Shown piece by piece: positions 2,385-39,016 of a DNA stretch of 40,953 nt (within the stretch, counting starts at the first letter, position 1; every line of letters begins with the position of its first letter). Location of the stretch: assembly GCA_003649235.1 (NCBI GenBank), contig QMRG01000003.1, forward strand, positions 1 to 40,953, in the 5' to 3' direction. The notes beneath the pieces are model-generated. The model had not been told where the DNA came from. It saw only the letters and a list, made by a program, of their open reading frames with translations, and made no database searches. The translations under genes and the position numbers were made by a program. The stretch comes from Thermoprotei archaeon (lineage in GTDB: Archaea; Thermoproteota; Thermoprotei; Thermofilales; B69-G16).

Positions 2385-3537
2385 ATGAGCTCGTGGAGCA
2401 AACTGCCTAAAGCAGCGCGGAGATACATACTTTATCACTGCATGATAACTCCTACTCTCTTCTGGTGGTACGTCGTACCATATTTAATGCTTAACAAAGG
2501 ACTCAGCGTAGAAGAAACCGGGCTCTTTTATACAACCGGGATGTTAACGAGTTCAATAATCAATTTTCTAGTGGGGAAATTCTTAGATAAAGGCTCGCCT
2601 AATATCTTAATGGCTATCATTTCGCTAATAGAATTCTTCTCTTATATTCTATATTTTATCGCTTTTGCCTCAGATCAACATATCCTCATTCTAGTAGCCA
2701 TAGCTATAGAATATTTAAGTCGTGGTTTCTATCCGGCTTATCCCGCGTATGAATACGAAGTATATCCGGAAGAGTTAAGGAGTAAAGCCTTCATATATCA
2801 TTATATCCTGCCGTATCTAACTCAAGCAGTAACATACCCACTGATAGGTTACTTATTATCATTTTACCGAGAAAATCTAGAGTTAAGCATATTGGCTATA
2901 GCAATATTCTCCCTCTTCTATGCATATATACCTATAAGCTGGCTACCTAAAAGTCGAGAGGAAAGTAGAGCTTCGTAAAGATAGAAAGCGAAAAAGGAGT
3001 GTTCCGAAAGAGCTTATACCTCTAGCTCTAATTCTGATACTCCTCTCCGTAGCCTATAATCTAGCTCCCACATTCGTCTTGGTAAATTTGTTAATAGAAA
3101 AATTTGGAGGAGGATTATTCCATATAGGAATTTATGAATCTATAGTAGGCTTTACAATGGCTCTTTTCATGCTTCCTCTACTAAAGGTTGATAAGAGTAA
3201 GGGAAAACTGCTAGCTCTTCTCGGAATATCTCTGATATCTATCGCATATGGCATTTTGGGATTATCCACGGAAATCTTTCATGTTTTTATCTCCGCGTTT
3301 GTATTATCGCTTGGAGAATCTATAATGACTCCATTTTACCTTGATGCGCTATTTTCTCGAATACCTGAGGAGATTAAAGGATCTGTATTAGGAGCGCTAG
3401 CTGGGATAAGAAAAATAATCAACCTAGCAGCTCCCTTAGTAGCTGGTTTTCTAGCAGCAGTTTCTCCTTCATTACCTTATATAGCGTCAAGTTTTACAAT
3501 TATAATAGTAGCTATACTATTCGCAATTTACGGTTGA
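2385..3537 (+). pseudogene. MFS-type transporter interrupted by an apparent frameshift (N half 2385-2978, C half in another frame to 3537)
   Basis: Frame 0 encodes about 6 TM helices ending WLPKSREESRAS*. Frame 1 is open from 2938 and reads GYLKVERKVELRKDRKRKRSVPKELIPLALILILLSVAYNLAPTFVLVNLLIEKFGGG..., i.e. the cytoplasmic loop and the C-terminal TM half. Confidence 0.75.
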
Positions 3538-5198: not shown

Positions 5199-5807
5199 TT
5201 GAATATGGGTAAGATAAAGAATATTATTTTTGATTTAGATGAGACATTAATAAAACTTCCCGTAGACTGGCCGGTGGCATACGAAGAAGTAAGGAAATAT
5301 ATAAGGAGAAACTTTACAAACCTATTAAATCTATTAGCAGAATTATGGAATACGGAGGATTATCATATAGTATCGCGAATTATAGAAAAATTCGAGCTTG
5401 AAGCTCTCGACTATATTCAGATTCTGGATAATTCTCAAGAATTAATATTAGACTTATCTAAGCATTATAGACTGAGCCTGGTCACTCTTCAAGGACGAAA
5501 AATAGCTGAAGAAGCATTACGCAAACTTGGCATCCGGAAAACCTTTGAAATTGTGATTACTCGAGACGATGCTCCAACACGGCTTAAACAATTACAAATG
5601 GTTCTTGAGAAAACAAGTTTTAAACCTAAAGAAACAATTGTAGTTGGCGACAAGTTAAACGATGTAGAATCAGCTTTAAAACTTAAATGCTGGGCAGTAC
5701 TAGTCGATCGTAGAAATGAAGCTGAGCTGTTAAACGGATATGAAAGAAGAATATTTGTGATTAAAAATTTAAGTGAACTTGAAAGTTTATTAAATTCTCT
5801 TCAGTAA
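5199..5807 (+). CDS. HAD-superfamily hydrolase
   Basis: IIFDLDETLIKLP (motif I), VTLQGRK, VVGDKLNDVESAL (motif IV). Confidence 0.85.
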   Translation: MNMGKIKNIIFDLDETLIKLPVDWPVAYEEVRKYIRRNFTNLLNLLAELWNTEDYHIVSRIIEKFELEALDYIQILDNSQELILDLSKHYRLSLVTLQGRKIAEEALRKLGIRKTFEIVITRDDAPTRLKQLQMVLEKTSFKPKETIVVGDKLNDVESALKLKCWAVLVDRRNEAELLNGYERRIFVIKNLSELESLLNSLQ

Positions 5808-6953
5808 GAGAGTGCCTTGTCTAACCAAAAGTTTAAGTAAAAACGGAATTCCAACCTTTAAAAAATAAGCATAGCCTATCTCGTTTTTCAATAAAAGTTT
5901 TAAGTACTTTTCAATTAAACTTTTATATTCCTTTGTAAATTTAACGTCATAATACTGGAAACTATAATAAATTTTACTGAATAAATTCCCCACTTTTAAA
6001 TTACGAAGAATGAATTTATCTATAATCTCCATATAGCTCAGTTTCTTCCTATTCAAAATTGCAGAAGCCGTTAAAGCTCCAATCCACCCGCTTAATAAAG
6101 CTTGATAAATCCCTTCCCCACTCCAAGGATCTCCTAGACCAGCTGCGTCTCCAACCAATAGTACACGTTTTCCTTCAAGTATACGTCTAGAGGAACCTAC
6201 CACTGGTATACAACTATATTTCAGCATTTTATCCGCTTTTACTTTAAATTTTTTCTTAATATATTTCAAAAATCTCTTTACTGAAGCTCTAAATTCTTTA
6301 CAACTAGACAGTCTACATCCTATACCTATATTGATGTATTCTTTTTTAGGAAATACCCAACCATAGCCATTTCTCAGATATCCTAAGGATAACTCGATAA
6401 AGTCGAGGTTATGTTTATAAGGTATTTCTGCCACGGCCGCAAGCATGAGTTCATTTTTCGACGATCTATGCTCCAACCCGGTCATTGCCGCAGTTTTTCC
6501 TTCTACACCATCGGCTCCGATTACAAAATCGGCTTTAAACACTTTGCTCTTAGTCTTTAACTCAAAAAATCCATTTTTTCTCTTTAATTCTATTAGAGGC
6601 TCATTTTCTAAGAAAAGAGCACCTGTATCTACCGCCTTCAATGCCAAAAATTGATCAAAAAACTTACGGCGCACAGTCTCTATAGCATTTTGAACTTCAA
6701 GGGTAGCTTCTAAACCTCTAACATGAGTAAGTTTTATCACATCAATCTTTTTCTCAATATAGCCTTTGTCATAGAGTCCAAATTTTTTCAAGAAATCTAC
6801 AGTCTTTACTGTTAAACCGCCGCCGCAAGGCTTATCTCTAGGAAAAACTTCTTTATCTACTAAGATGATATCGAAGTTTTTCTGCGCCAAGAAATAAGCA
6901 GCTGTTGAGCCTGCTGGTCCGGCTCCAATTACAGCTATCTCGTATTTCTCCAT
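5790..6953 (-). CDS. geranylgeranyl reductase family protein
   Basis: AVIGAGPAGSTAAYFLA Rossmann motif, DKPCGGGLT, GYGWVFPKKEYINIGIG, VGDAAGLGDPWSGEGIYQAL. Confidence 0.85.
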   Translation of the reverse strand: MEKYEIAVIGAGPAGSTAAYFLAQKNFDIILVDKEVFPRDKPCGGGLTVKTVDFLKKFGLYDKGYIEKKIDVIKLTHVRGLEATLEVQNAIETVRRKFFDQFLALKAVDTGALFLENEPLIELKRKNGFFELKTKSKVFKADFVIGADGVEGKTAAMTGLEHRSSKNELMLAAVAEIPYKHNLDFIELSLGYLRNGYGWVFPKKEYINIGIGCRLSSCKEFRASVKRFLKYIKKKFKVKADKMLKYSCIPVVGSSRRILEGKRVLLVGDAAGLGDPWSGEGIYQALLSGWIGALTASAILNRKKLSYMEIIDKFILRNLKVGNLFSKIYYSFQYYDVKFTKEYKSLIEKYLKLLLKNEIGYAYFLKVGIPFLLKLLVRQGTLLLKRI

Positions 6954-6969
6954 AGCAATACACGATAAT

Positions 6970-7911
6970 CTATAAACTGTCTAAATCAATTTTACCTTCT
7001 AAAACTCCGCTCTCAAGTATAGCATTTATAACTTTTTCTATATCTCCGCCCGCCTCTTTAGCTATATTTTTTACGATTGTTGTTGGAACTTCCTTAAGAA
7101 GTCCTAAATCTTTACTCGTGAATTGCTGAAGAGAATCTACAGCTATAATTGCTTGTTCTATATATGTTGCAGTGAGCTTAAGCCCGATCTTCCAGATATC
7201 TCCTTTAACTTCAAGAGCTTTAGCGCTTCCACTCCTTTCCTTACCTAGCAATAATCCAATTATATCATCTATAACTTGATATGCGCAACCTATATTATAT
7301 CCATAAACTCCAGCTATACGTGCTGCTTCGATGCCGACCGTGGCACCGGCGCCTATAAAACATGCGGCTTCGAATAGTGAACCTGTTTTTAAGCCTATAA
7401 TCTCGTCGTAGGTAATTTCACGCTCTATATTTTCACGGTTATACAGGATATCGAGTAGCTTTCCTAAAGAAGCTTTTCTCCAAGCATCCACAGCTAACTT
7501 GGCAAGCCAGTCTCCTTTCCTAGCTATAGTTAATACACTGGTTGACACCATTGTATGAGGTAAAATTGATGCTATGTCTAAGCCGTATTTAACCCATACG
7601 GCGTCTTTACCTCTTCTCTTTTTAGAACCATTTATAATATCGTCGTAAACTAGACTAGCCGTATGGATAATCTCTATAGCACATGCCAAATCTATCAATT
7701 CGCGTCTCTCTCCATTGAGAATTTCTCCTATAAGTATCAGTAATGCGCCTCTAAACTTTCCCTCTTCAGAGGCAGCATATCTTACAATACTAGCTAGTTC
7801 CTTGCTGAAGTTCTTCTCTATAAAAAACGTTAGATGTTCTTCTAGTTCTGAGGTAATTTTTTCCAGATATTCTCTGGCTTTACGTTCAGCTTCTCTGTTT
7901 ACTATATCCAT
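6970..7911 (-). CDS. polyprenyl synthetase family protein (divergent Asp-rich motifs)
   Basis: IIHTASLVYDDIINGSKKRRGKDAVWVKYG, LKTGSLFEAACFIGA, YQVIDDIIG: prenyl synthase fold signatures. Confidence 0.8.
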   Translation of the reverse strand: MDIVNREAERKAREYLEKITSELEEHLTFFIEKNFSKELASIVRYAASEEGKFRGALLILIGEILNGERRELIDLACAIEIIHTASLVYDDIINGSKKRRGKDAVWVKYGLDIASILPHTMVSTSVLTIARKGDWLAKLAVDAWRKASLGKLLDILYNRENIEREITYDEIIGLKTGSLFEAACFIGAGATVGIEAARIAGVYGYNIGCAYQVIDDIIGLLLGKERSGSAKALEVKGDIWKIGLKLTATYIEQAIIAVDSLQQFTSKDLGLLKEVPTTIVKNIAKEAGGDIEKVINAILESGVLEGKIDLDSL

Positions 7912-13591: not shown

Positions 13592-14014
13592 TTGCGTCTA
13601 ACTAAGAGGTATCTAGAATATCTAGTTGCCGTCCATGCCGAGGAATACGAAGGTATAGCTAGATTATATAGAATAGCTGAACGTTTAGGAGTAAAACTGC
13701 CCTCGGCTCGTAAAACATTAAAAGAACTTGAAACGCTTGGTCTAGTACTTAGATTCCCTGGAAGAGGCTATAAGCTGACTAGAGCAGGGAAGGAAGTCTA
13801 TCGAAAATTCATATGGAAGCATAGAATCCTCGAGACCTATCTCTGTCGGTTCCTAAACTTTAGTCCCGAAGAGGCTTGTGAATGCGCTTCTCACTTTGAC
13901 GCCTATATACCAGAAGAAGTTATAGGTAGAATGTGCGAGCTCATGGGACATCCTCCTTCCTGTCCCCACGGATACGAAATACCTCACGTAGACCATGGAG
14001 GTGAAGAAGAATGA
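13592..14014 (+). CDS. DtxR/MntR-family metal-dependent transcriptional regulator
   Basis: wHTH ARLYRIAERLGVKLPSARKTLKELETLGLVLRFPGRGYKLTRAG plus HRILETYLCRFLNFSPEEACECASHFDAYIPEEVIGRM and a Cys/His-rich tail. Confidence 0.85.
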   Translation: MRLTKRYLEYLVAVHAEEYEGIARLYRIAERLGVKLPSARKTLKELETLGLVLRFPGRGYKLTRAGKEVYRKFIWKHRILETYLCRFLNFSPEEACECASHFDAYIPEEVIGRMCELMGHPPSCPHGYEIPHVDHGGEEE

Positions 14015-15000
14015 AAAAGCTACTAGCCGTAGTAATATTCATCATATTAACTTCGATGGCGAACGCCGTGTATGCCCCAGCTGAAAATGTAGTTGTGGTT
14101 GCGACAATATCTCCTCTCGCAGCTATAGCTAGAGAAATAGGCGGAGATAGGGTAATAGTCCACTACTTAGTTCCTCCTGGAAGCGATCCTCATCAATATG
14201 CTCTAAAACCAGAAGACTTTAACCTTGTTAGAAACTGCGACATATTCATATCAATCGGTAAAGAAGCCTTCTTAGGCAGTCTTCCAGAGAATCCTGGCAA
14301 GATTAGACTTTCCTGGAACGATTGGCTAGAGGCAGGAATTTACATCAAAAATGGCAATCCTCACTACCTCTGGTTATATCCGGAGAACGCTATAAAAGTT
14401 GCCGAGAAAATCTATGAAGCATTAATCAGCATAGACCCCGCCTGGAGACTCTACTATACTGAAAGACTTGAGAAGTTTAAAGCAGATATAGAAAATCTAG
14501 TAAGGTGGATAGATGAGTATACCACGATCGCCAACGTTAAAGGTGAAAAGGTAGTTCTGGCAGGAGCTCATTTCGTACCTCTTGCCGAAGCTATGGGTTT
14601 GAAGGTAGTCGGAGTATTGATAAGAGGAGAAGGAAAAACTCCTTCTCCGCTAGAAATAGCAGAGATAGAGAAGCGAATTAAGGAAGAAAACGTTAAAGTA
14701 GTGATAGTATTGGCTACACAGAAAATAGGAGATGAAGGCAGAATAGCATCAATATTATCCAGGGAAACCGGAGTAGCACTGGTATATTTATATGGCTCTA
14801 TGTTCAGCGGAAACGATAGTTATATAGAATACATCAAGTACACAGTAACATCTATAGTCTCTGCGATAGAAGCGGCTAAGAGCAAAAGTTCATCTGAAAC
14901 ACAATTCCTACAATTCTCTCAGACTACATTGCTAGCATCTGTAGTTATTCTCTTCCTATTATCAATTATTGAAACAGCTATCTTGGTGAAAGGTAGATGA
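14011..15000 (+). CDS. metal (zinc/manganese) ABC transporter substrate-binding protein
   Basis: ATISPLAAIAREIGGDRVIVHYLVPPGSDPHQYALKPED, NPHYLWLYPENA, AGAHFVPLAEAMG; N-terminal signal and C-terminal TM. Confidence 0.85.
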   Translation: MKKLLAVVIFIILTSMANAVYAPAENVVVVATISPLAAIAREIGGDRVIVHYLVPPGSDPHQYALKPEDFNLVRNCDIFISIGKEAFLGSLPENPGKIRLSWNDWLEAGIYIKNGNPHYLWLYPENAIKVAEKIYEALISIDPAWRLYYTERLEKFKADIENLVRWIDEYTTIANVKGEKVVLAGAHFVPLAEAMGLKVVGVLIRGEGKTPSPLEIAEIEKRIKEENVKVVIVLATQKIGDEGRIASILSRETGVALVYLYGSMFSGNDSYIEYIKYTVTSIVSAIEAAKSKSSSETQFLQFSQTTLLASVVILFLLSIIETAILVKGR

Positions 15001-15776
15001 AACCTATTGTCAATTTAGAGAACGTAACCGTAGTCTATGAAAATAGAATAGCTCTAGAAGATGTAACTTTTAAGCTTGAAGAGCCTGCATTTCTCACAAT
15101 CATAGGACCCAACGGCGCTGGGAAGACGACACTCTTAAAAACATTGCTCGGACTTATCAAGCCTATTAAAGGCAGAGTAACCGTACTTGGCTATAATGCT
15201 CTAAAAGATTGGCGTAAAGTAAGAAGATTAACAGGTTACGTTCCGCAAAGAGAGAGAATAGACTCTTCAATACCGATACTAGTTAAAGACGTCGTGCTTA
15301 TGGGCAGAATACCAAAGGTCAATCCTGGATTTAGACTTATGGAAGAAGATGTGAAAAAAGCTAAGGAGGCGCTAGAAAGAGTAAATATGGAAGAATACTG
15401 GGATAAGCCATTTTCTCATCTATCTGGAGGACAGCAGCAACGGGTTCTAATAGCGAGAGCTTTAGCCTCGGAGCCTAACCTATTATTATTAGATGAGCCT
15501 CTTTCCGGCGTCGACGCTACCTCTCAAGAAATAATATTAGAAACTCTTAAAGGAGTTGTTAAAAAGGGAGTAAGTGTCATTATGGTAACTCATGATGTAA
15601 ACCCTGTAATGGAGATAACTGATTATTTACTCCTACTTAATAGAAAAGTTATAGGCTTCGGCAAACCTCAAGAACAAATAAAACCCGACAAGCTACACAC
15701 ATTATATGGTCGTAAAGTAGAGATAATTAGAATGGGTGAAACCTGTTACGTAATAGGAGGCGATGCACACGCTTAA
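14997..15776 (+). CDS. metal ABC transporter ATP-binding protein
   Basis: Walker A GPNGAGKTT, signature LSGGQQQR, Walker B LLLLDEPLSGVD. Confidence 0.95.
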   Translation: MKPIVNLENVTVVYENRIALEDVTFKLEEPAFLTIIGPNGAGKTTLLKTLLGLIKPIKGRVTVLGYNALKDWRKVRRLTGYVPQRERIDSSIPILVKDVVLMGRIPKVNPGFRLMEEDVKKAKEALERVNMEEYWDKPFSHLSGGQQQRVLIARALASEPNLLLLDEPLSGVDATSQEIILETLKGVVKKGVSVIMVTHDVNPVMEITDYLLLLNRKVIGFGKPQEQIKPDKLHTLYGRKVEIIRMGETCYVIGGDAHA

Positions 15777-15784
15777 ATAAACAG

Positions 15785-16609
15785 GTGTATGAGATGTTGG
15801 ATATCTTCACCTACAGTTTTATGATAAAAGCTTTAACAGCTTCTATATTAGCTGCTGTTCTTTCAGCTGTTATAGGTTCCTTTACCGTATTAAGAAACCT
15901 ATCGACTATGGGAGCTGCTATAGCTCACGCAAGCCTTGCCGGAGCTCTTCTAGCCTTTTTCCTGGGTATTGAGCCTACTATTGGAGCCATAGTTCTCAGC
16001 ATACTTTTTGCATTGATAGCGGCTTATAGTGGCGAAAAAGGAGGAAAAAGTATGGACGTAGTTCTAGGAGTAACATTCGGTTTTTCAGCTGCAATAGCAG
16101 CACTTATGTTATCTCTGACTAGAGAATACACTGTGGCCGCGTATTCGTATTTAATAGGAGAAGTTCTTGGAGTTACTGACGATGAACTTTTATTATTAGG
16201 TGTTTTCGCTTTCTCTTCACTAACACTGGTAATTCTCTTCTATAAAGAATTTAAGTTTATAACTTTTGATAATGAAGCCGCCGAAGCTATGGGAGTGAAC
16301 ACTAGGCTTTTCCACTACTTGATGATAATGCTCATAGCCGTGACTACAGTAGTAGAGCTTAAAGTCGTAGGCTCTATTCTAGCAGTAGTGTTCCTAGTAG
16401 CTCCAGCAGCAGCTGCTCTAGAATTCTCCCATAGCTTAGAGAAAATGGTTCTACTATCTATACTATTTGCATCGCTGTCCGCAATCCTCGGAGTTATAAT
16501 TTCGATATTCTTTAATCTACCAACAAGCCCTACTATAGGAATTCTAGCAGCGGCGCTATACCTAGTATCTCTGATATTATCGCCTAAGAAAAAATGTTGT
16601 AACTTTTAG
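15785..16609 (+). CDS. metal ABC transporter permease (ABC-3 family)
   Basis: GSFTVLRNLSTMGAAIAHASLAGALLAF, VVELKVVGSILAVVFLVAPAAAA, LPTSPTIGI. Confidence 0.9.
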   Translation: MYEMLDIFTYSFMIKALTASILAAVLSAVIGSFTVLRNLSTMGAAIAHASLAGALLAFFLGIEPTIGAIVLSILFALIAAYSGEKGGKSMDVVLGVTFGFSAAIAALMLSLTREYTVAAYSYLIGEVLGVTDDELLLLGVFAFSSLTLVILFYKEFKFITFDNEAAEAMGVNTRLFHYLMIMLIAVTTVVELKVVGSILAVVFLVAPAAAALEFSHSLEKMVLLSILFASLSAILGVIISIFFNLPTSPTIGILAAALYLVSLILSPKKKCCNF

Positions 16610-17283
16610 AGAATTTTCCTCCTAACTTCAAAAGAAAATTCAGGTTCTATAACTTTAAATAATTCAGGATATTTCTCTCTAGCTTTTTCTAACAACTCTT
16701 TCTGAACGCTCTCTTCTACACGTGGAAAATCTATTATCCAAAATTCGCATCTATCATCTCCGGCCGCCTTACACTTAACTTCTCTAACTATGGCAAATCT
16801 TTCAGTATCTAGTTTTTTAGCAGTATAGAGTATGACTTGACTGGTTTGATAAGCACCTTCATAAGCCCCAGCGGGATAAGTGCATATTGGCTTTCTAATC
16901 GGGAGTCTAACGCCTCTACACCATGGACAATCGTTATCCCAGAACTTAGCTATGAAGATCTTATGTCCATACCAAACCTCCCATCCCGACTCTGTTCCCG
17001 TCGGCATACGTCCGGCAAACGTATACCAAGCGACTTTAGCAATGAGCTCGGTTTCTTCGAAAGGTTTCAATTTTTCCACATCCTTTGTCAAAGCCAGCAT
17101 ATATTCATGTCCCATCGAAAACCCCCAAGTGAAGATACGCTTCATAGCCTCTTCGAATCCCACTAAGTCTATTAACTCAGTGAGAGCTGAAATATAGAGA
17201 GTTCGAATAGTGAAAATATTAGCCGTCTCGCTTCCCAGATGTTTTCTAGCTCTGGCCAATAATAGAGCTAGGAACTCTTTCAT
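16606..17283 (-). CDS. V4R (4-vinyl reductase, Bet3-like superfamily) domain protein
   Basis: PICTYPAGAYEGAYQTSQ ... AIVREVKCKAAGDDRCEFWIIDF: typical V4R CxYxxG and CxxxGDxxCxF signature. Confidence 0.8.
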   Translation of the reverse strand: MKEFLALLLARARKHLGSETANIFTIRTLYISALTELIDLVGFEEAMKRIFTWGFSMGHEYMLALTKDVEKLKPFEETELIAKVAWYTFAGRMPTGTESGWEVWYGHKIFIAKFWDNDCPWCRGVRLPIRKPICTYPAGAYEGAYQTSQVILYTAKKLDTERFAIVREVKCKAAGDDRCEFWIIDFPRVEESVQKELLEKAREKYPELFKVIEPEFSFEVRRKIL

Positions 17284-17290
17284 AGGAGGT

Positions 17291-18037
17291 CTACCTTATT
17301 ATTACTTGCAAATCTTTTATTTTACCTTTAGCATGTAATCTTTTAAGAAATATTAACAAAGTATACGGATCTAAATTAAGTTCTTTTGCTAACTCGCTAG
17401 CCCATTTAGACCCATTTACTAGTTCTAAAATTTTTACTTCTATATCTGAAAGTCCTTCTAGAGAAGGTTTAGAATCTAAAGGAATTGGCAGATAATCTAT
17501 ATGCATAGCTTTTTCTTCAACTCTCTTTGTAGCCTCTTTTTTGACTTCTTCTTTAACTTTTTTTGCCTCTTCTCTAACTTTTAGCTCTTCCATCAATTCT
17601 ATTAAACCATTGCCAGTTTTCGCTGAGACTATTAAAATTTTTGTATTTAAACTTCTAGAAAGGTCATTTAAATCTTCATCACTTATTCTCCTCTCTAGAT
17701 CGGATTTATTACCTATGAGTAAAATCTTTACACCAAAAGGTATGAGGGAATACCACTTATTCATATTAGAAATGGTATCAGGATTTGATAAATCAAAAAT
17801 TAAGAGAGCTTTTTCTATCTTCCACATCTTTATACCATGCACTAATACGTCTACAATGCTCGGATCTCCTCTAATTTCTCTAACATAAAGATCTTCTCTT
17901 ATTTTATAATCTCTAAAGAAGCGCGGTTCACTATAATCTACTTTTACCCCTGGGAAAAGCGTTTCAATAAGAGATGACTTTCCTACCCCCTTATCTCCAA
18001 CGAAAATAATGAATTTTCTTCTAGAAATTAAGCTCAA
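17291..18037 (-). CDS. Ras-like small GTPase with charged linker and C-terminal winged-helix domain
   Basis: G1 GDKGVGKSS, G4 GNKSD, G5 SAKTG; C-terminus LSDIEVKILELVNGSKWASELAKELNLDPYTLLIFLKRLHAKGKI. TTG start with GAGGTG Shine-Dalgarno. Confidence 0.85.
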   Translation of the reverse strand: MSLISRRKFIIFVGDKGVGKSSLIETLFPGVKVDYSEPRFFRDYKIREDLYVREIRGDPSIVDVLVHGIKMWKIEKALLIFDLSNPDTISNMNKWYSLIPFGVKILLIGNKSDLERRISDEDLNDLSRSLNTKILIVSAKTGNGLIELMEELKVREEAKKVKEEVKKEATKRVEEKAMHIDYLPIPLDSKPSLEGLSDIEVKILELVNGSKWASELAKELNLDPYTLLIFLKRLHAKGKIKDLQVIIR

Positions 18038-18039
18038 GA

Positions 18040-19299
18040 TTACACCTCATACTCTACTTTCATCGGAGCCTTTATAGATTTTAACGCTAAAGGCACTAGC
18101 TTCAATCCGCTAATTCGTTCATATAATCTCTTGGCAACAGTATTATCGTAATGAGATATGAGGTAGCCTAATCTTTTAGCACCTTCTTCGTCGGTCATTA
18201 GGACTCTAACTCCCATCTCCATCATAAACTCAGATTTATAGAGCATCGAGGCGATCTTCTTCCCGTAGTAGAACATATCCTCGCCGAACTCTCTCCACCA
18301 AATTTTTTTATATTCCTTTAATACCTCAGGTTCCCCTTTGTCCAAAGCCTTTTTTACGATTTCTGCAGCGATAGCCGCTCCATAAATAGCACCATACAAT
18401 CCTTCTCCAGTAACTGGATGTACAAAGCCAGCGGCGTCTCCTACAGCTAACAGACGATATTCTATTGAATATGTCTTCTTCCTCGGTACATCGCCGAAAG
18501 GTATCAACCATGCCCTATCATAATCAACTTTTAAATCTCCGGGTAAAACTCTGACTTTTTTAGCTTTCTCTATAAATTCTTGAAACATCTTCCCGTGATT
18601 CTTAAAGTATTTTAGATTAGTCCCTATACCGATGTTCAAATATCCTTTTTTTGGAAATACCCATCCGTAACCAGTAGGTGCAGCTCCAAAAAACAAGAAT
18701 ATAGGCCTAGACATTCTATCGCTCCAAAGCCTAAAAACTTTCTCCATATCATACGGACATTCGGTACCCCAACATGCTCCTAACTGTTCAACTCGTAGCG
18801 GAGGCAAGCCAACTTTCTCTCCCAATCTATCCTGAACTCCATTCGCCAATATGATATAGCTAGATTCGTACTTCTCGCTGTCCAGCGTTTCGACAAGAAC
18901 TCTTTCATCCACCTTTTTTACGTTAGTGACAGTCTTTTTCTCCTTTAATTCCGCTCCTTCAGACTCTGCAATTTCCATCAATTTTTTATCAAAAACTGAA
19001 CGTCTAACTAAACCGCCGTATTTTCTCAATTTTTCTCCATATCTTATTATCAATTCTCTGCCTTTAGGAGAAAACACTATAAAACCGTCTATTTTAAGCT
19101 CTATAGCCTCACTAACTTCCTTTGAAACATGTTCTACTAAAAACTTTTCCACACCATAAGTTACGCCACCGCCGCAGAACTTATCTCGTTCCTTTCTACT
19201 CTTCTCTAAAACTAAAGTTTTAAGACCTAGACGAGCAGCTATAGTAGCCGCTACGGAGCCTGAAGGACCAGCACCCACTATTATTAAATCATAAACCAC
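18040..19299 (-). CDS. geranylgeranyl reductase family protein (second paralogue)
   Basis: IIVGAGPSGSVAATIAARLG, DKFCGGGVTYG, GYGWVFPKKGYLNIGIGTN, VGDAAGFVHPVTGEGLYGA. GTG start with AGGTGAT Shine-Dalgarno. Confidence 0.88.
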   Translation of the reverse strand: MVYDLIIVGAGPSGSVAATIAARLGLKTLVLEKSRKERDKFCGGGVTYGVEKFLVEHVSKEVSEAIELKIDGFIVFSPKGRELIIRYGEKLRKYGGLVRRSVFDKKLMEIAESEGAELKEKKTVTNVKKVDERVLVETLDSEKYESSYIILANGVQDRLGEKVGLPPLRVEQLGACWGTECPYDMEKVFRLWSDRMSRPIFLFFGAAPTGYGWVFPKKGYLNIGIGTNLKYFKNHGKMFQEFIEKAKKVRVLPGDLKVDYDRAWLIPFGDVPRKKTYSIEYRLLAVGDAAGFVHPVTGEGLYGAIYGAAIAAEIVKKALDKGEPEVLKEYKKIWWREFGEDMFYYGKKIASMLYKSEFMMEMGVRVLMTDEEGAKRLGYLISHYDNTVAKRLYERISGLKLVPLALKSIKAPMKVEYEV

Positions 19300-19419
19300 A
19301 GTATCACCTAAGCTAGCAAATAATGGCTATTAATAGTTGTCTTATATTTCTTCTAATATTTCTATCTCTTTTAAATTTCCTAAATATAAGGACTGGTAAT
19401 GAATTATAAATTTTAAATG

Positions 19420-20484
19420 TTAAATACTGATATACTTTGTAATTTCTTTAAAACGTTTCAAACCAACAATTTTAACTAAAATATCTCGGTTAAGCCTAGC
19501 TCTATTTCTTAAAAATAAGATCTTTTTAGCAGTTCTAGGCCCTACTCCAGGTATTTTCAGCAATTCTTCATAAGAAGCGGAGTTTAGATCAACAGGATAG
19601 AGATTCTTATGCTCTCTTGCATATTCTTCTTTCAAATTCTTGAAATCTTTAAGCATATTGCTATCGTCTAACAATAATTCAAAATCCTTTAAAGTAAAGC
19701 CATAATCCCTTATAAGGTAAAAAGCCTGATAAAGTCGTCTAACCCGCTTAGATGAACATGGCAAAAGCTTTTCAAGAGGAGTATCAGGTATAGGCTCAAA
19801 TGGACTGTAAAAGACTCTAGCTAGTTTATGCTTCTTAACTAGAAACTCAGTCAGTTTTAATATTTCAAAATCAGTATTCCCTACTCCAACTATGAGCTGG
19901 GTTGCAACTCCGGCTTTTAAAAGTCCTTTCTCTCTACCTATCTTAGAGGCAATCTTTAAAATTCTAAGGATATCATATTTATAACTGCCTTTATCAGGTG
20001 CAATCTCGTAAAAAACATCAGGAGTTGCAGCTTCTACGTTAACTCCGACTCTATCAGCAACTCTACAAGCTTCCTCAATTAGATATCTTGGAGTTCCAGG
20101 CATAAGCCGCAAGTTTATATAACCTGTAAAACCTCTAGTTCTTAACATCTTAGCAACTTCGATCTCCTTCTCGACGACGTCTTCTGGATCTTTAAAAACG
20201 CTAGAAGAAAGGAAAAATCCGGAAATTCTACCTCTCTTCCATAATTCCAGTACTTTATCGACTAATTTTTCGATTTTCCAAAAAGATCTATAAACTCTCC
20301 TTCCCTTTCGAAATGCACAATATCTACATTCATTCACACAGTAAGAGGCAAGCAAAGTTTTAAAAAGTGGGACGCGGCGTCCCTTATACCATGACAGGTA
20401 AATTGGAGAATCCCAATCCCATCTAGACATAGCTACTAGAGCTTCTTCCTTGCCGAGCCATTTGCTCAGCGTTACTTCCATCAA
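19420..20484 (-). CDS. radical SAM protein with C-terminal helix-hairpin-helix (putative DNA modification/repair)
   Basis: CVNECRYCAFR (CxxxCxxC), VDLNSASYEELLKIPGVGPRTAKKIL (HhH). Confidence 0.85.
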   Translation of the reverse strand: MMEVTLSKWLGKEEALVAMSRWDWDSPIYLSWYKGRRVPLFKTLLASYCVNECRYCAFRKGRRVYRSFWKIEKLVDKVLELWKRGRISGFFLSSSVFKDPEDVVEKEIEVAKMLRTRGFTGYINLRLMPGTPRYLIEEACRVADRVGVNVEAATPDVFYEIAPDKGSYKYDILRILKIASKIGREKGLLKAGVATQLIVGVGNTDFEILKLTEFLVKKHKLARVFYSPFEPIPDTPLEKLLPCSSKRVRRLYQAFYLIRDYGFTLKDFELLLDDSNMLKDFKNLKEEYAREHKNLYPVDLNSASYEELLKIPGVGPRTAKKILFLRNRARLNRDILVKIVGLKRFKEITKYISI

Positions 20485-26493: not shown

Positions 26494-27648
26494 ATGGAAA
26501 TATTAATGGTACAGATGACTGGCAACTACCCTCTAGATATAGGGGGGCCGGCTACAGTAGCTTATTACATAGCGTATAACTTGGCTTTACGGAATGTGGA
26601 GGTCTCGATGCTTATCCGTATAAAAGAACAGAACGAGTTAAAGGAACTGAGAAAAACTAGCGAATTTCAGATCTTAGAAGAAAAGATTAACATTATACCT
26701 GTAACTATGAAATACGATTTTAAAAATATGGTGAATATACCAGCGGTCCTGTATAAGATATATAAGGTAACCCGAGACTTTAATCCGGAAAAATACGATA
26801 TAATACATTATAACTCTCCTCCGGTAGACATAACGTTATTATATCCTCTCAAATCTAAGGGAAAAACTAAACAGACTATAGCCATACATGGAGGATTGTT
26901 TTATGAAAGTGGAAATTTCATCGGCCGCTCCATTATGAGGAGATATTCGAATCTGTTTCAGAGAGTTATAGCTCTAAACGAATTTTCTAAAAAATTAGCG
27001 TTAAAAGCTGGTTTTGTAGAATCTATTATTGAGAAAATACCTAATGGGGTCGATATAGATTATTTTAATAAAGTAAATAAAATCTCTTTAGATGGCGATC
27101 CTTCTTTAGTATATGCTGGAAGATTGACTAAAGTTAAAGGTGTGGATATCCTCCTGGAGGCTTTTCATCTTTTCTTGAAAACTCATCCTAAAGCCCATCT
27201 TTATGTTATTGGAAATGGAAAAGAAAGAGCATATTTAGCTAAATTAGTAGAAAGATTGAATTTATCAGAAAATGTGACATTTACAGGCTTTATTCCATCA
27301 ATTAGAAAAGTTCATGAGTTTATAAAATCGGCCGATATCTTCGTTTTACCTTCATATATGGAAAATTTCAGCATCTCACTGCTAGAAGCTATGGCTTCTA
27401 AAACTCCTATAATAGCATCTGATGCAGAAGGCAACCTAGAAGTGCTTGTAGGGAAAACTGCGTTATTTTTCCGTCGAGGGGATAGTAGAGATTTAGCGGA
27501 AAAAATTAGAGTATTAGCTGAAGATGAAGAATATCGTAGCAAGCTCGCTGAAGAGGCTTATAATCTAGCAATTAAAGAGTATTCCTGGGATGTGGTTACA
27601 AATCGTTATCTTCAAGTTTTCCAAAATCTAGTAGGAGAAAGTCGATGA
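26494..27648 (+). CDS. GT4-family glycosyltransferase
   Basis: PNGVDIDYF, VYAGRLTKVKGVDILLEAF, ADIFVLPSYMENFSISLLEAMASKTPII. Confidence 0.9.
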   Translation: MEILMVQMTGNYPLDIGGPATVAYYIAYNLALRNVEVSMLIRIKEQNELKELRKTSEFQILEEKINIIPVTMKYDFKNMVNIPAVLYKIYKVTRDFNPEKYDIIHYNSPPVDITLLYPLKSKGKTKQTIAIHGGLFYESGNFIGRSIMRRYSNLFQRVIALNEFSKKLALKAGFVESIIEKIPNGVDIDYFNKVNKISLDGDPSLVYAGRLTKVKGVDILLEAFHLFLKTHPKAHLYVIGNGKERAYLAKLVERLNLSENVTFTGFIPSIRKVHEFIKSADIFVLPSYMENFSISLLEAMASKTPIIASDAEGNLEVLVGKTALFFRRGDSRDLAEKIRVLAEDEEYRSKLAEEAYNLAIKEYSWDVVTNRYLQVFQNLVGESR

Positions 27649-28637
27649 TAAGGTTAAAAATTCCTTTAAAAAATGCATCTAAGCCTTTATTGATACCAAC
27701 TTTTGAAGGTAGTGATCAAGCTGTTCATCCAGATATAGTCAAAGTAGGAAGAAAATATGTGCTTACGTTCACTCCTTATCCGTTTTCAAATGAACTTTAT
27801 GAAAATCCTTCAATAGTTGTCAGTAACGATGGAATATCATGGTATGAAGATGGTATTAAAAATCCAGTAGCGCGACCAAAAGCAGATGATGAACTTACAA
27901 GTGATCCAGATATCGTATATACAAATGGACGTTTCTACCTCTTCTATATAAACTGGAAATGGGGCGGAAAATTTTTCAAAAAAGCCAGGGCGTTAATGAA
28001 GCAGTATACCAAACAGTACTTTTCTGCGATAAATCTAATCGTCTCACGTGATTTAAAAAATTGGAGTCATCCTCTCCAAATAGTAAAAAGTGGAGGTTTT
28101 TCTAGTTTCTTCCCATTTACTAGGCTAATCGTAAGTCCCTCTGTAACTTGGGATAGAATATTTAGAATGTGGTACGTAAAAGTTTTTGGATGTACTAATA
28201 CGCAACCACGTATGTACTATCGGGAAAGTTTCGACGGGATCAAATGGAGTAGAGAGAAGAAAGTATTTATTGAAATGCCTAGAAACGAGGTTTTGTGGCA
28301 TATAGATGTCGAGAAGCTAAGTAACGGCAGCTATTTAATGATCATCGCCGCCTATCCACAATCGGCTAATTGTGGAAAAGTAAAGAGATTATACCTGGCG
28401 TTATCGGATGATGGTCTCAAATGGACTGTTTTTAAAGAACCGTTACTCACAACCAGTACTGGAGAATCTTGGGACAGCGATGGACTCTACAGGTCCACGT
28501 TTACCATCGAAGATGGTAAAATTCATCTTTGGTATACCGGCTTAAAAAATGAAGTATGGAGAATAGGATATACAGTATCTGAAACTCCTCTATTTAGTGA
28601 AAATGTTTACTCATTAAACGTGGTTGAGGCGAAATAA
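27645..28637 (+). CDS. glycosidase-like five-bladed beta-propeller protein (GH43/GH32 superfamily-like)
   Basis: HPDIVKVGRKYVLTFTPYPF, SNDGISWYEDG, SDPDIVYTNGRFYLFYINW, WDSDGLYRSTFTIEDGKIHLWYTG. Confidence 0.7.
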   Translation: MIRLKIPLKNASKPLLIPTFEGSDQAVHPDIVKVGRKYVLTFTPYPFSNELYENPSIVVSNDGISWYEDGIKNPVARPKADDELTSDPDIVYTNGRFYLFYINWKWGGKFFKKARALMKQYTKQYFSAINLIVSRDLKNWSHPLQIVKSGGFSSFFPFTRLIVSPSVTWDRIFRMWYVKVFGCTNTQPRMYYRESFDGIKWSREKKVFIEMPRNEVLWHIDVEKLSNGSYLMIIAAYPQSANCGKVKRLYLALSDDGLKWTVFKEPLLTTSTGESWDSDGLYRSTFTIEDGKIHLWYTGLKNEVWRIGYTVSETPLFSENVYSLNVVEAK

Positions 28638-29770
28638 TGAGGGTTCTTCTATATATAGACGATTTGAGTATAAAAGGAGGCGGAGAAAGAATTGCAATGT
28701 ATTTTCTTAAAGCATTGCTTAATAATGGAATAGATACCTATTTTTTAACACTAACAAATGTTAAAACATTTGAAGAGATTAATAAATATCACAGAGAGTA
28801 TCCGGAGAAATTTTTTAAAGCATGGCCGACTGCGAGATGGAGTTATGTGATTCCTAAAAAGACAAGGCTAATTAGTATAGCTTTAGACTTCATATTTTTC
28901 ATAACGATATATTTACAACTATTTTTGATAAATAGGAAGGTAAAACCCGATGCGTATATCGTTATCGTAAATACTACGTGTCAAAATGCACCTTTCCTGC
29001 TTCATGGAAAACCAGTTATATCTTGGGGTTTAACTCCGTTCAGAAAGAAGTGGCCGCTTGTGCTCCAGAACGTTACTCTAAGGAAGGGATTAATAACTAA
29101 AAGGCTAATCCTAGTAGTAGGGTCTAAACGTCAAAAACAGGTATCCGATGCAGAGTATAGACCATATATTAGAGTGATTACGGTAGGTTACGACGATAAG
29201 CTATTCAAGTATAGTGATGAAGAGAAAATCAAAGGAAGAATAGTCTATATAGCTAGAATTTCGCCAGAAAAAAGGGTTGATCTAGCAATAGAAACTGCTA
29301 GATTTCTTAAAGATAGATACAAAGATTTTGAGTTAATGATAGTAGGCTATCCACAGAGTATAAAATATTATAAAAAGCTCAGTAAAATGATAGCAAAATA
29401 TGATCTGCTAGAAAACGTAAAGATAATTCCACAAGAATCTCCAGAAGTTATTAAGAAAAACTTAGCAAAAGCAGAGATTTTTTGGAATTTCTCTGATGGA
29501 TATGGAGGAGTGGTGAATTATGAAGCTTTGGCCTGCGGATGTATACCAGTAGTTTTACGAAACTTCAAGGATCAGATAAACAAATACGGATATGTAGTAG
29601 ATGATATTGAGGAAGCCGTCAATGCAACAATAAAAATATTGAAAATGGAATATAGTGAAAAGAGAAAAATAGCATTAAAATGTTCAAAGTATGCAAAGAA
29701 ATTTTCTAGATCATTTTTTGAGAAAAAATTTATTAATCTTTTAATCACCAAGCTATCAAATCGAGGTTGA
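28637..29770 (+). CDS. GT4-family glycosyltransferase
   Basis: SIKGGGERIAMYFLKAL, VYIARISPEKRVDLAIETA, EIFWNFSDGYGGVVNYEALACGCIPVV. Confidence 0.85.
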   Translation: MRVLLYIDDLSIKGGGERIAMYFLKALLNNGIDTYFLTLTNVKTFEEINKYHREYPEKFFKAWPTARWSYVIPKKTRLISIALDFIFFITIYLQLFLINRKVKPDAYIVIVNTTCQNAPFLLHGKPVISWGLTPFRKKWPLVLQNVTLRKGLITKRLILVVGSKRQKQVSDAEYRPYIRVITVGYDDKLFKYSDEEKIKGRIVYIARISPEKRVDLAIETARFLKDRYKDFELMIVGYPQSIKYYKKLSKMIAKYDLLENVKIIPQESPEVIKKNLAKAEIFWNFSDGYGGVVNYEALACGCIPVVLRNFKDQINKYGYVVDDIEEAVNATIKILKMEYSEKRKIALKCSKYAKKFSRSFFEKKFINLLITKLSNRG

Positions 29771-30711
29771 TTAATATTAAAAAACACATAGTCTCTATAG
29801 TAATACCATCTTATAATTCACATTCTACAATAAAAGAGTGTATAAAAGCCTTGCTTAATCAAAATGTAGAGAGAGACTATGAAATAGTAGTAGTCGATAG
29901 TAGCGATGATAAAGGAGTTGTTGAGATGCTTAAAGAATTTCCAAAAGTGAAAGTTCATTATTTTGAAAAGCATGTAAATGCTGGTAAAGCGAGAAATTTA
30001 GGAGTAAAATTAAGCAGAGGAGAGATTATAGCCTTTATAGACTCGGATTGTATAGCACCTGAAAACTGGCTTAAAAAGATTCTGAAATATTTCGATGAAT
30101 ATCCGCAAATTTGTGGAGTTTTGGGAGTTTATACTGGAGGACGTAGCCTATTAGAGAAAATATGTGGAGGAGAATTCTTAGAGGAATTCAGTATAGGATT
30201 TTTTGACGGCTTTATAGAGGGAAACTGTGCTTTTAAAAGAGAAATTTTTGAAAAAGGATGTTTTTGGAGTGAAAGAAGCAGATCTGAATACGTAGATTTA
30301 GCTAAATGTATAAAATTTAAAATCAAAAAACCCGTACTATGGGATCCTGATTTAAAAGTTTTGCATCTAGGAAGAGTGACATGGGGGAAAATTATCAAAT
30401 CTGGTATATCAAAGTTTGAAGAAGATAAGAAGAATAAAGTTCTCTTAGCCAGATCGTCCTTATTAGCTTTTATGTTAATAGCAGGTTTTCTGCTATTTCC
30501 TTATTCGTTACTCACTATGAATTTTAAATATCTGCTTTTATCAATTTTGCCTAATATTCTTCTCGTATATTATGCTTTTAAAGACCGCATGCTTTCCTTT
30601 AAATATAGGATTTTATTTCTGCCTTACTCAATTTTAATAAAATGGGTTTTCTGGCTTGGATGGATCTACGCTCTCTCCAGGGAAGTTTTCAAAAGGGCAA
30701 AAATAATATAG
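29767..30711 (+). CDS. GT2-family glycosyltransferase with C-terminal TM segments
   Basis: SIVIPSYNSHSTIKECIKALLNQ, NAGKARNLGVKLSRGEIIAFIDSDC. TTG start overlapping the upstream stop. Confidence 0.9.
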   Translation: MINIKKHIVSIVIPSYNSHSTIKECIKALLNQNVERDYEIVVVDSSDDKGVVEMLKEFPKVKVHYFEKHVNAGKARNLGVKLSRGEIIAFIDSDCIAPENWLKKILKYFDEYPQICGVLGVYTGGRSLLEKICGGEFLEEFSIGFFDGFIEGNCAFKREIFEKGCFWSERSRSEYVDLAKCIKFKIKKPVLWDPDLKVLHLGRVTWGKIIKSGISKFEEDKKNKVLLARSSLLAFMLIAGFLLFPYSLLTMNFKYLLLSILPNILLVYYAFKDRMLSFKYRILFLPYSILIKWVFWLGWIYALSREVFKRAKII

Positions 30712-30787
30712 AAAAAATGTCTAAAAGCATAGAAAAGTATTCATAGAAGTATGATAACATTAGAATATCAAATCGGCGCTGGTAAAA

Positions 30788-31738
30788 ATGTATAGCGAAA
30801 ATGTAAGAGAAAAAATCTTAATCACCGGAGCTACTGGCTTTATAGGAAGTCATCTTTTGCCGAAGCTAGTAGAAATGGGATACGACGTCTATGCTTTTCA
30901 AAGATATATAACTGGCAGATACGTCTTAGGCTCGAATGTAAAAACTGTTTTTGCGGATTTAAGAAATGAAGTAGATGTTAGGAGAGCCATAAAACTCGTA
31001 CAACCTGATTATGTAATCCATTTAGCCGCTATAAGCCCGGTATCCTATAGCTACGACCATCCTCAAGAAGTTACAGAAGTTAACTATCTCGGAACTGTAA
31101 ACCTGGCAGAAGCTTGTCTCCGAGAAGTACCACGCTTTAAGCAATTCCTTTTCGCCTCCACCTCCGAAACATATGGAAATGGACCCGTGCCTAAAAAAGA
31201 AGATACTCCTCAAAACCCTAATAGCCCCTATGCGGTAAGCAAGCTTGCCGCTGAAAAATACCTATTATACCTGAGAGATGCCTACGATTTTCCAGTAACT
31301 ATACTTAGGAACTTTAACACTTATGGTAGGAAGAGAAATACTCATTTTTTCATAGAGAGGACTATTTGCCAAATGTTGACAAGCGATGAGGTAAGGCTCG
31401 GTGATCCAAACCCAATACGGGATTTTATGTATGTTGAAGATCACGTTAATGCTTACCTAACCTGTCTAGGTAATAGAAAGGCTATAGGCGAGATATTCAA
31501 TTTCTGTACAGGTCGTTACATGAGACTTGATGAAGTAACGAAGATAATTGAAAAATTAACAGAATTTAATGGAGTAATTAGATGGTATACTATTCCAGCT
31601 AGACCTCTCGATATAAAAGTCCTATACGGAGACTATTCTAAAGCAAAGAGACTTTTAAACTGGGAGCCTAAATACACGCTAGAAGAAGGACTAAAACTAA
31701 CTGTCGAGTATTGGCGGAAAGCCCTAAATAAATACTAA
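30788..31738 (+). CDS. NAD-dependent sugar epimerase/dehydratase (extended SDR)
   Basis: ITGATGFIGSHLLPKL, SPYAVSKLAAEKY (YxxxK), IRDFMYVEDHVNAYL. Confidence 0.9.
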   Translation: MYSENVREKILITGATGFIGSHLLPKLVEMGYDVYAFQRYITGRYVLGSNVKTVFADLRNEVDVRRAIKLVQPDYVIHLAAISPVSYSYDHPQEVTEVNYLGTVNLAEACLREVPRFKQFLFASTSETYGNGPVPKKEDTPQNPNSPYAVSKLAAEKYLLYLRDAYDFPVTILRNFNTYGRKRNTHFFIERTICQMLTSDEVRLGDPNPIRDFMYVEDHVNAYLTCLGNRKAIGEIFNFCTGRYMRLDEVTKIIEKLTEFNGVIRWYTIPARPLDIKVLYGDYSKAKRLLNWEPKYTLEEGLKLTVEYWRKALNKY

Positions 31739-32847
31739 TTTGCTAGTTTTTCTAAAACTTCTAATACTTTATCTTGTTCTTTACCTGTAATTTCTACGAA
31801 TAAAGGCAAAGATAGCACAGTATCGCTTGCTTTTTCGGTATTTGGAAGATATCCACGACTATATCCGAATAGTCTAATGTAGACGGGTTGGAGATGTATA
31901 GGTGGATCGAAAGCGCATCGAGTTTCTATACCTTCTCTTTCGTAAAGCTCAATGGCTTTATCTCTAAGTTCTCTAGACTTGAATTGAACCGTATAGAACA
32001 TGTATGTATGTCTTACATATGGAGCCTCATAAGGAGGACGTACAAACTCTAACTCTTCGATTCTTCGTGTATAATATCTAGCCTTTTCAATTTTTCTAGC
32101 TAAAACCCATTCTAATCGTTTAAGCTGAACGAGTCCAAGTGCAGCTTGAATATCTGTCATCCTATAGTTAAAGCCTATGTATTTATAGCGAAACTGTTCA
32201 TGTTGTCCATGTGATCTTAACATTCTAATTTTCTCAGCTAATTCTTCGTCATTAGTAGTGATCATACCTCCTTCTCCAGTAGTCATATTCTTATTAGGAT
32301 AAAAAGAAAAGCAAGCTGCATGCCCTAAACTTCCTACTATCTTACCCTTATATATGCTGCCATGAGCTTCAGCGGCATCCTCTATGAGGAAAAGGCCATT
32401 TTCCTCCGAAATCTCTTTTAGTTCATCCATTTCTGCCGGATGACCTGCATAATGGACGGCTATAATAGCCCTGGTTTTTTCAGAGAGTTTCTCTCTAACC
32501 GAGTTAGGGTCTATATTTAGTGTTAAAGGATCTATGTCTGCGAAAACGGGTTTCGCGCCCTGATATAAAACGACATTCGCTGTAGAAATAAATGAGAATG
32601 AAGGAACTATAACTTCATCTCCAGGTCCTATTTCCAGCGCGGCTAATACTAGATGTAAAGCTGCAGTTCCATTCGTAACGGCAACTCCTTCTTTAGCACC
32701 AACATACCTGGAAAATTCTTTTTCAAAACGTTCCACATAAACGCCTTGAGAAAGCCGTTTTTCAAGAACCACCTTATAAACAGCTTGAGCGTCTTCTTCT
32801 GTAATATATGGCATGGCGTAAGGGATTAAATATTTGTTTTTACGCAC
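31735..32847 (-). CDS. DegT/DnrJ/EryC1/StrS family aminotransferase
   Basis: VTNGTAALHLVLAAL, IEDAAEAHGSIYKG, CFSFYPNKNMTTGEGGM (PLP Lys). Confidence 0.93.
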   Translation of the reverse strand: MRKNKYLIPYAMPYITEEDAQAVYKVVLEKRLSQGVYVERFEKEFSRYVGAKEGVAVTNGTAALHLVLAALEIGPGDEVIVPSFSFISTANVVLYQGAKPVFADIDPLTLNIDPNSVREKLSEKTRAIIAVHYAGHPAEMDELKEISEENGLFLIEDAAEAHGSIYKGKIVGSLGHAACFSFYPNKNMTTGEGGMITTNDEELAEKIRMLRSHGQHEQFRYKYIGFNYRMTDIQAALGLVQLKRLEWVLARKIEKARYYTRRIEELEFVRPPYEAPYVRHTYMFYTVQFKSRELRDKAIELYEREGIETRCAFDPPIHLQPVYIRLFGYSRGYLPNTEKASDTVLSLPLFVEITGKEQDKVLEVLEKLAN

Positions 32848-33034
32848 TAATATTCACCAATCAAGTGAGGGATACATCTCTATTGAAGTATTTATACATT
32901 TCCTTTATTTCGGAAAAATTAACTTATTACTTTCATTTTAAACACTATTAACAAGTTATTTTACAAATTTGTTTTCATCATTATAATTGAAAAATAAAAG
33001 GTAGAATAGAAAAATAGAGGAATGATTAGAAGGA

Positions 33035-33042
33035 TTTATATA
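33035..33042 (+). promoter_or_regulatory. TATA box candidate for the epimerase at 33088
   Basis: TTTATATA in an AT-rich 240-nt divergent intergenic region. Confidence 0.4.
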
Positions 33043-33087
33043 ATACACTGTTAAAAAGTATAATAGCAAGATTTAAAGGAAAAATAT

Positions 33088-34038
33088 ATGAAAATATTGG
33101 TAACAGGATCTTCGGGTTTTATCGGAAGTCATATAGTTGATAAATTACTGGAAAAAGGCTATGAAACCGTTGGAATTGATCTCTGGTTTAACAAAGAAGA
33201 TCTATATTATCAATTAGAAAATCCTAATTTTGAATTTGTTAAAGGAAGCATCCTAAACGAAGATTTAATGAAGAAGTTAATTTCCGATTGTGATGTGATA
33301 ATACACTTAGCGGCAATACTAGGTACTTCAGAAACGATAGAAAAATACGATATAATAAAAGTAGTAGAGACTAATATTCTTGGAACAGCTAAAATTCTCA
33401 AATGGGCTTCACAAAAAGGTATTGAAAAGGTAATAATACCATCAGTACCCGACGTACCCTGGCTTAACCCTTATAAGATATCGAAGAGTACTATGGAGAA
33501 ATTCGCTCTCTTATACAATATATATTATAAACTTAAAACTGTAGTTCTTAAATTGGCAAACGTCTATGGACCTAGAGAAAGATGGCCTGAAGCTAGCCTC
33601 GGAGCTCCCTATAACTATCAAAAAGTTGTACCTACCTTTATTATAAACGCATTAAAGGGCAAACCTTTGTTTATCTATGGAGATGGAGAACAGAGAGCCG
33701 ACTATGTATATATAGGCGATGTGGTCGAAGCCTTTCTCAAAGCGCTTCACTCTGAAGAAGCTATAGGACGTGTAATACCGATAGGGAACGGTAGAACAAC
33801 TTCTGTAAATGAGCTAGCGGATATTATTATAAGGCTTACCGGTAGCGGGTCTTTTAAAAAATACAGCTCTATGAGGAAGGGAGAAATCCCGCTTAGCATA
33901 TACGTAGATACATCTTTGGCTAAAGAACTTCTGAAATTTGAGGCAAAGACTAGTTTGAGAGAAGGATTGGAGAAGACTATACCTTACTACAAAGAAAAAG
34001 TTCTTCTTGAAAGAGAGAAGAGAAAGGTCTTAGTATGA
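33088..34038 (+). CDS. NAD-dependent sugar epimerase/dehydratase
   Basis: VTGSSGFIGSHIVDKLLEKG, VIIHLAAILGTSE, NPYKISKSTMEKF, RADYVYIGDVVEAFL. Confidence 0.9.
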   Translation: MKILVTGSSGFIGSHIVDKLLEKGYETVGIDLWFNKEDLYYQLENPNFEFVKGSILNEDLMKKLISDCDVIIHLAAILGTSETIEKYDIIKVVETNILGTAKILKWASQKGIEKVIIPSVPDVPWLNPYKISKSTMEKFALLYNIYYKLKTVVLKLANVYGPRERWPEASLGAPYNYQKVVPTFIINALKGKPLFIYGDGEQRADYVYIGDVVEAFLKALHSEEAIGRVIPIGNGRTTSVNELADIIIRLTGSGSFKKYSSMRKGEIPLSIYVDTSLAKELLKFEAKTSLREGLEKTIPYYKEKVLLEREKRKVLV

Positions 34039-35928: not shown

Positions 35929-35970
35929 TTATGGGAATGTTCTTGAAGGTGTGTGTCATTTCGCTAACAT

Positions 35971-35978
35971 TTATATAC
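35971..35978 (+). promoter_or_regulatory. TATA box candidate for the gene at 36007/36013
   Basis: TTTATATA about 35-42 nt upstream of the ATG at 36013. Confidence 0.45.
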
Positions 35979-36006
35979 TGCCAAAATATGCTAAAATGTA
36001 AAGGTC

Positions 36007-39008: not shown

Positions 39009-39016
39009 GCGGCACT

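Follow-up and report, generated by a model that had tools for sequence, protein, structure and literature searches.

A three-gene operon in a Thermofilales genome

The window analysed here is a stretch of 40,953 nt from contig QMRG01000003.1 of Thermoprotei archaeon (assembly GCA_003649235.1), a member of the order Thermofilales, and forms part of a 1.81-Mb metagenome-assembled genome (MAG) that is 84% complete. On its minus strand, three closely packed genes encode an enzyme of the geranylgeranyl reductase (GGR) superfamily, a Ras-like GTPase and a protein resembling both V4R domains and the TRAPP subunit TRAPPC3/Bet3. The original prediction, made from the sequence alone, had described these genes as a candidate primordial GTPase-regulator pair linked to an isoprenoid-lipid enzyme; its description did not include the C-terminal winged helix of the GTPase, which was found in the present analysis. 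The features of the operon are the following.

18040..19299, minus strand: GGR-superfamily flavin adenine dinucleotide (FAD) enzyme (subfamily 'GGR-A'), operon gene 1; GTG start, 419 aa (TIGR02032; tree)
17291..18037, minus strand: Ras-like GTPase with fused C-terminal winged helix; TTG start, 248 aa (Pfam Ras, AlphaFold2, Foldseek)
17557..18037, minus strand: G domain, residues 1 to ~160 of the GTPase (sequence, alignment of relatives)
17294..17500, minus strand: winged-helix domain, residues ~180-248 of the GTPase, Lrp/AsnC-related (profile search, AlphaFold2 model)
16606..17283, minus strand: V4R/Bet3(TRAPPC3)-like protein; ATG start, 225 aa (Pfam, AlphaFold2, Foldseek, profile)
18043..18048, minus strand: Shine-Dalgarno GAGGTG of the GTPase gene (sequence; the same in G002)
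19303..19309, minus strand: Shine-Dalgarno AGGTGAT of the reductase gene (sequence)
19342..19349, minus strand: candidate TATA-like box AAATATAA, 43-50 nt 5' of the reductase start (inspection only)

The tight packing first described is borne out: 2 nt separate the reductase and GTPase genes and 7 nt the GTPase and V4R genes, and the GTPase Shine-Dalgarno sequence (18048-18043) lies within the 3' end of the reductase gene, just inside its stop codon. The sister MAG G002 (surveyed genomes bear G numbers, that of the window being G000) carries these three genes too, at the same distances of 2 and 7 nt, and its GTPase gene also starts with TTG. Between G000 and G002, nonsynonymous and synonymous divergence (dN/dS) amounts to 0.069/1.30 for the V4R gene, 0.147/1.22 for the GTPase gene and 0.086/1.78 for the reductase gene; all three are thus kept as proteins under purifying selection, with ratios of ~0.05-0.12.

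The reductase exceeds the TIGR02032 cut-off (191.5 versus 158.8 bits) and falls below those of the archaeal phospholipid reductase equivalogs (103.6 versus 780 bits and 91.8 versus 580 bits). By these models, it is a member of the GGR superfamily to which the equivalogs assign no specific substrate. The genome encodes several members of this superfamily, one of them also in the window (5790-6953), beside a prenyl-synthase-like gene.

A Bet3-like protein and a GTPase with a winged-helix tail

The V4R protein barely passes the Pfam V4R (PF02830) cut-off (31.4 versus 31 bits), through the last 20 domain residues only, and the cysteine-less relatives tested fall below it. We rejected the idea that this match is spurious, given that fold and profile agree with the assignment. 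The AlphaFold2 model (pTM 0.80) has the Bet3 fold, and Foldseek returned 46 PDB matches at E <= 0.001, all of them chains of the TRAPP or V4R/PoxR type and headed by TRAPPC3/Bet3 (human Bet3 1sz7: TM score 0.76 on the target). Both GxxxG pairs, GFSMG in the helix at residues 43-64 and GAYEG in that at residues 135-156, are present and are kept in most members of the family; glycine pairs in helices 2 and 5 served Podar et al. to link V4R and Bet3 (PMC2253512). Five cysteines are conserved within the subfamily of the window protein, and a C-terminal helix past the V4R core is conserved in the V4R-like family. The predicted fold supports the placing in the Bet3 superfamily that had been proposed for this protein.

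Profiles built from sequence alone point to TRAPPC3 in particular. The V4R-like family profile matched TRAPPC3 6aq3 (E 3.7e-7), mouse and human Bet3 (~1e-5) and Thorarchaeal TRAPPC3 (0.005; structures 7yh2 and 7yh3), and none of the V4R structures at E values to 10, whereas a control profile built from the order's canonical V4R paralogues matched MopR (1e-11), MJ1460 (2e-9), PoxR (1e-6) and DmpR, and no TRAPPC3. The subfamily that bears the cysteines, which includes the window protein, reached Thorarchaeal TRAPPC3 at 1.1e-4 and the cysteine-less subfamily reached TRAPPC3 at 0.011; the two match each other at 7.5e-18. The cysteine-bearing subfamily also matches canonical V4R in profile comparison (6e-8), and its Cys-rich C-terminal motif resembles that of zinc-binding V4R proteins, while the cysteine-less subfamily has hardly any match of this kind. 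These results support the view that the V4R protein is closer in sequence to TRAPPC3 than the remaining V4R proteins encoded in these genomes are. On the other hand, the family does not reach the Pfam TRAPP threshold (one member at E 0.21), and a reverse search with two TRAPPC3 fragments against 1037 open reading frames (ORFs) was not significant: V4R-like members are among the top matches, the best at E 0.04, yet unrelated ORFs score equally. We therefore use 'Bet3-like' for likeness, not ancestry.

The GTPase lies above the Pfam Ras cut-off (44.4 versus 21.6 bits), and its AlphaFold2 model (pLDDT 83) has a Ras/Rab fold, with KRAS (E 3.5e-11), Rab6A (TM score 0.73 on the target) and Rab8 among the Foldseek matches. 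The G1 (GDKGVGKSS), G4 (NKSD) and G5 (SAK) motifs are present. The G3 motif is altered, with EIRG in the place of the Ras-like DxxG and its following catalytic glutamine; in the alignment, the glutamate is found in 8/8 relatives and the glycine in 6/8. No C-terminal prenylation cysteine was found, the protein ending instead in the winged helix (...LQVIIR). By sequence, the functional parts of the GTPase are unlike those of Rab proteins, since G3 reads ExxG or worse, the C-terminal cysteine is missing and a DNA-binding-type winged helix is fused to the G domain. Profile searches relate this helix to Lrp/AsnC-type regulators (PH0140, E 6.3e-9), more weakly to PqqD (E 1.4e-5), and also to PF16221 (HTH_47). 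Rab-like GTPases were reported from Thermofilum (Surkont and Pereira-Leal 2016, PMC4915359), and these share the Ras fold and the archaeal order with the protein described here. Unlike them, it is fused to a winged helix, and its relative in G009 has no Pfam Ras hit; because of this poor Ras score and the fusion, it is probably a different protein from the one in that report.

The same type of winged helix also ends methyltransferases of ~225-255 aa (L105:6768-7526, L106:5995-6672 and L053:6806-7573, the L numbers denoting loci) in other families of the class and is thus a mobile C-terminal module. It recurs in small proteins in which it follows a CPxC zinc ribbon (L047:6069-6518, L102:3713-4144, L099:6091-6516 and L101:6603-7025). 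These have a conserved 'PHxDHxVxVxxDxxGxVxxV'-like segment with no Pfam name, and their N-terminal segment recurs across the class in proteins of ~260-315 aa and of ~100 aa.

Conservation of the gene neighbourhood

A gene-neighbourhood survey, which the original prediction had proposed as a check, was carried out in 81 genomes of the class and 398 genomes of the phylum. Full-length relatives of the GTPase with its winged helix occur in 8 of the 81 and 8 of the 398, all of them Thermofilales, and a V4R-like gene lies beside the GTPase gene in all eight, so the adjacency is conserved and is not due to chance. In seven of them, the GTPase gene is immediately 5' of the V4R-like gene, on the same strand, separated by 7 nt in G000 and G002 and by 45 nt in G009, and overlapping by 4 nt in G014, G016, G017 and G020 (a gene of the G016 pair spans two contigs). 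The order in G023 is permuted to V4R-reductase-GTPase. No other operon neighbours are common to the window and G009, G014, G016, G017, G020 and G023. The pair has therefore outlasted its surroundings, and we rejected mere local synteny as an explanation, the flanks differing between genera. These observations also bear on whether the genes stay together only by descent and operon economy, with no shared function. All genomes with the pair belong to one order and to four genera only (g1, g3, g10 and g13), as such a history would predict; but the pair is kept amid different flanks, G023 has a permuted order, and the gene with the winged helix holds its position although its N-terminal part is exchanged, and we regard co-transcription alone as very unlikely.

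Members of the V4R-like family occur in 15 of the 398 phylum genomes, again only in Thermofilales. In the sampled genomes, neither this family nor the full-length GTPase occurs outside the order, and the description of the pair as primordial is therefore not supported. G015 has only a remnant of the V4R-like gene (L103, ~7113-7268), with ~56 residues still matching; its close relative G011 retains the whole gene, and the sequences suggest an apparent recent loss. V4R-like genes without a GTPase partner are present in G011 and G013, and also in G001 and G021, where they lie at contig ends. In G006 and G024, the gene 5' of the V4R-like gene has a 4-nt overlap with it and codes for a zinc ribbon joined to the same winged helix, with the G domain missing; zinc-ribbon/winged-helix proteins are encoded at other genomic places in G011, G013 and G015. 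Because G006 and G024 couple the V4R-like protein to a winged helix that has no GTPase domain, the most constant partner of the V4R-like gene is the winged helix, not the GTPase. A functional link is supported by the adjacency in 8/8 genomes and by the zinc-ribbon/winged-helix protein taking the same 5' place in G006 and G024.

As to the proposed GTPase-regulator pair, the repeated placing of a Bet3-like protein beside a Ras-like GTPase stands, while the GTPase is not Rab-like and can be replaced, as in G006 and G024. In a pair of the TRAPP type, the Bet3-like protein would contact the G domain and drive or block nucleotide exchange as part of a function at the membrane, and the winged helix would serve only for docking. 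We consider this quite unlikely, though some weight remains with it, given the Bet3 likeness in structure and family profile, to which the canonical paralogues, matching only V4R structures, offer a contrast, and given that the Bet3 C-terminus acts on the Rab switch I in TRAPP, opening it (PMC10152722); the C-terminal helix is conserved here. The catalytic surface of TRAPP, though, is mostly formed by longin subunits (PMC10152722), and among the genes of the operon we recognised neither a longin nor a roadblock gene. The degenerate G3, the lack of a prenylation site or other lipid anchor, the fused DNA-binding-type domain, the replaceable G domain and the non-significant reverse search also speak against it. 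With a GTPase that is not Rab-like and a winged helix as the most constant partner, signalling to DNA appears more likely than a part in vesicle traffic or activity as a guanine-nucleotide exchange factor (GEF). Rather unlikely, too, is the more general claim that, outside Asgard archaea, a TRAPPC3-like protein exerts direct control over the nucleotide state of the dedicated Ras-like GTPase encoded next to it; this would place Bet3-type control of Ras-like GTPases, ancestral or convergent, in TACK archaea, wired to DNA and membrane-isoprenoid chemistry and not to vesicles.

The linkage to an isoprenoid-lipid enzyme was likewise found to recur. In 8 of 14 genomes, a GGR-superfamily gene adjoins the V4R-like gene or lies one gene away within its operon; the two share a strand in G000, G002, G021, G023, G013 and G024 and converge in G009 and G006. 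Chance linkage is expected at ~1% per locus, an arithmetic estimate (about four full-length GGR members per ~1900 genes) not based on shuffling. In the reductase tree, the linked enzymes fall into three subfamilies: those of G000, G002, G021, G023 and G009, which group with the unlinked G014 reductase (support 99/99); those of G006 and G024; and that of G013 alone. A single inherited event was rejected on this ground, and the link must have been made or kept more than once. That it involves different reductases speaks for a functional tie with isoprenoid reduction. Such a tie might also arise if the V4R-like protein were a carrier or accessory subunit presenting the polyprenyl chain to the reductase, with the GTPase/winged-helix protein a separate regulator that travels along. 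The reductases beside the V4R-like gene in G013 and G021, where no GTPase is visible, fit this idea; but the pairs of G014, G016, G017 and G020 have no adjoining reductase, which makes the GTPase/winged-helix partner at least as constant, and we hold the carrier function to be unlikely.

A candidate lipid-sensing switch and the rest of the window

We favour, tentatively and with a probability of about 0.42, a reading of the operon as a two-protein signalling switch, formed by the V4R sensor and the GTPase with its winged helix, that is tied to isoprenoid reduction and has a transcriptional output. The V4R/Bet3-like protein would be a dimeric sensor with a hydrophobic ligand, for which an isoprenoid consumed or produced by the neighbouring reductase is the most likely candidate. 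The sensor would contact the G domain of its partner and act on it in a nucleotide-dependent manner, and the winged-helix tail could then bind DNA and regulate transcription, with this operon or other lipid genes as the probable targets. V4R/Bet3 folds have hydrophobic ligands, such as palmitate in mouse TRAPPC3 and phenols in PoxR (PMC10933270), and in DmpR, a V4R sensor governs an NTPase (nucleoside triphosphatase) and a DNA-binding domain within the same chain, the ligand switching the NTPase (PMC7264223). Since V4R/Bet3 relatives bind hydrophobic molecules and DmpR joins the same logic in one chain, a split regulator is the most economical model.

Several observations weigh against this switch. 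The resemblance of the winged helix to PqqD-type peptide-binding domains means that it may bind protein rather than DNA, and the degenerate G3 leaves GTP hydrolysis in doubt. The lack of an adjoining reductase in four of the genomes with the pair counts here as well. Comparison yielded no shared operator, the G002 sequence being cut off 5' of the reductase; the inverted repeats upstream of the reductase in the window are AT-rich and stand without a comparison sequence, and no operator is claimed from them.

The putative switch shares with the DmpR-type regulators (DmpR, PoxR and MopR; V4R, AAA+ ATPase and helix-turn-helix) the order of hydrophobic-ligand sensor, NTPase and DNA-binding-type domain. 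It differs from them in being divided between two proteins, with V4R as a separate gene, and in having a Ras-like GTPase where they have a sigma54-type AAA+ ATPase, and an Lrp/AsnC-like winged helix. TRAPPC3/Bet3 works with a Ras-like GTPase, as the protein described here may do. Asgard archaea have both Bet3-type proteins and Rab-like GTPases, but in MK-D1, the small GTPase genes generally lie outside operons with roadblock, longin or TRAPPC3 genes (Tran et al., PMC10933270), so the partners cannot be read from the genome. In the open-access literature, we found no paper on a GTPase-V4R operon in Thermofilales and none joining V4R with geranylgeranyl reductase, and V4R, GTPases and Thermofilum are all absent from a review of the archaeal GGRs. 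Each part belongs to a known type, and together they make a new variant.

For the origin of the partnership between Bet3-type proteins and Rab GTPases, it matters that the genome itself here names the partners. Their hosts are cultivable hyperthermophiles whose proteins are likely stable enough for biochemistry, and a possible regulator pair of ancient style is thus directly testable. Even if the pair is a transcription switch, it would represent a new use of a Ras-like GTPase and a split analogue of the DmpR-type V4R regulators, one that may sense isoprenoid saturation.

Around the operon, the gene at 19420-20484, 5' of it and on the same strand, encodes a radical SAM protein with a C-terminal helix-hairpin-helix that resembles TIGR03916 (putative DNA modification/repair; 217.9 bits versus a cut-off of 343.5). 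On the plus strand, positions 13592-16609 hold a DtxR-like metal regulator and genes of a zinc/manganese-type ABC transporter, the permease gene of which overlaps the V4R gene tail to tail by 4 nt. Adjoining pieces of a transporter-like gene at 2385-2978 and 3079-3537 possibly represent a single gene split by a frameshift or an assembly error. Glycosyltransferases, sugar epimerases, an aminotransferase and an asparagine-synthase-like gene at 26494-40183 probably form a surface-glycan locus.

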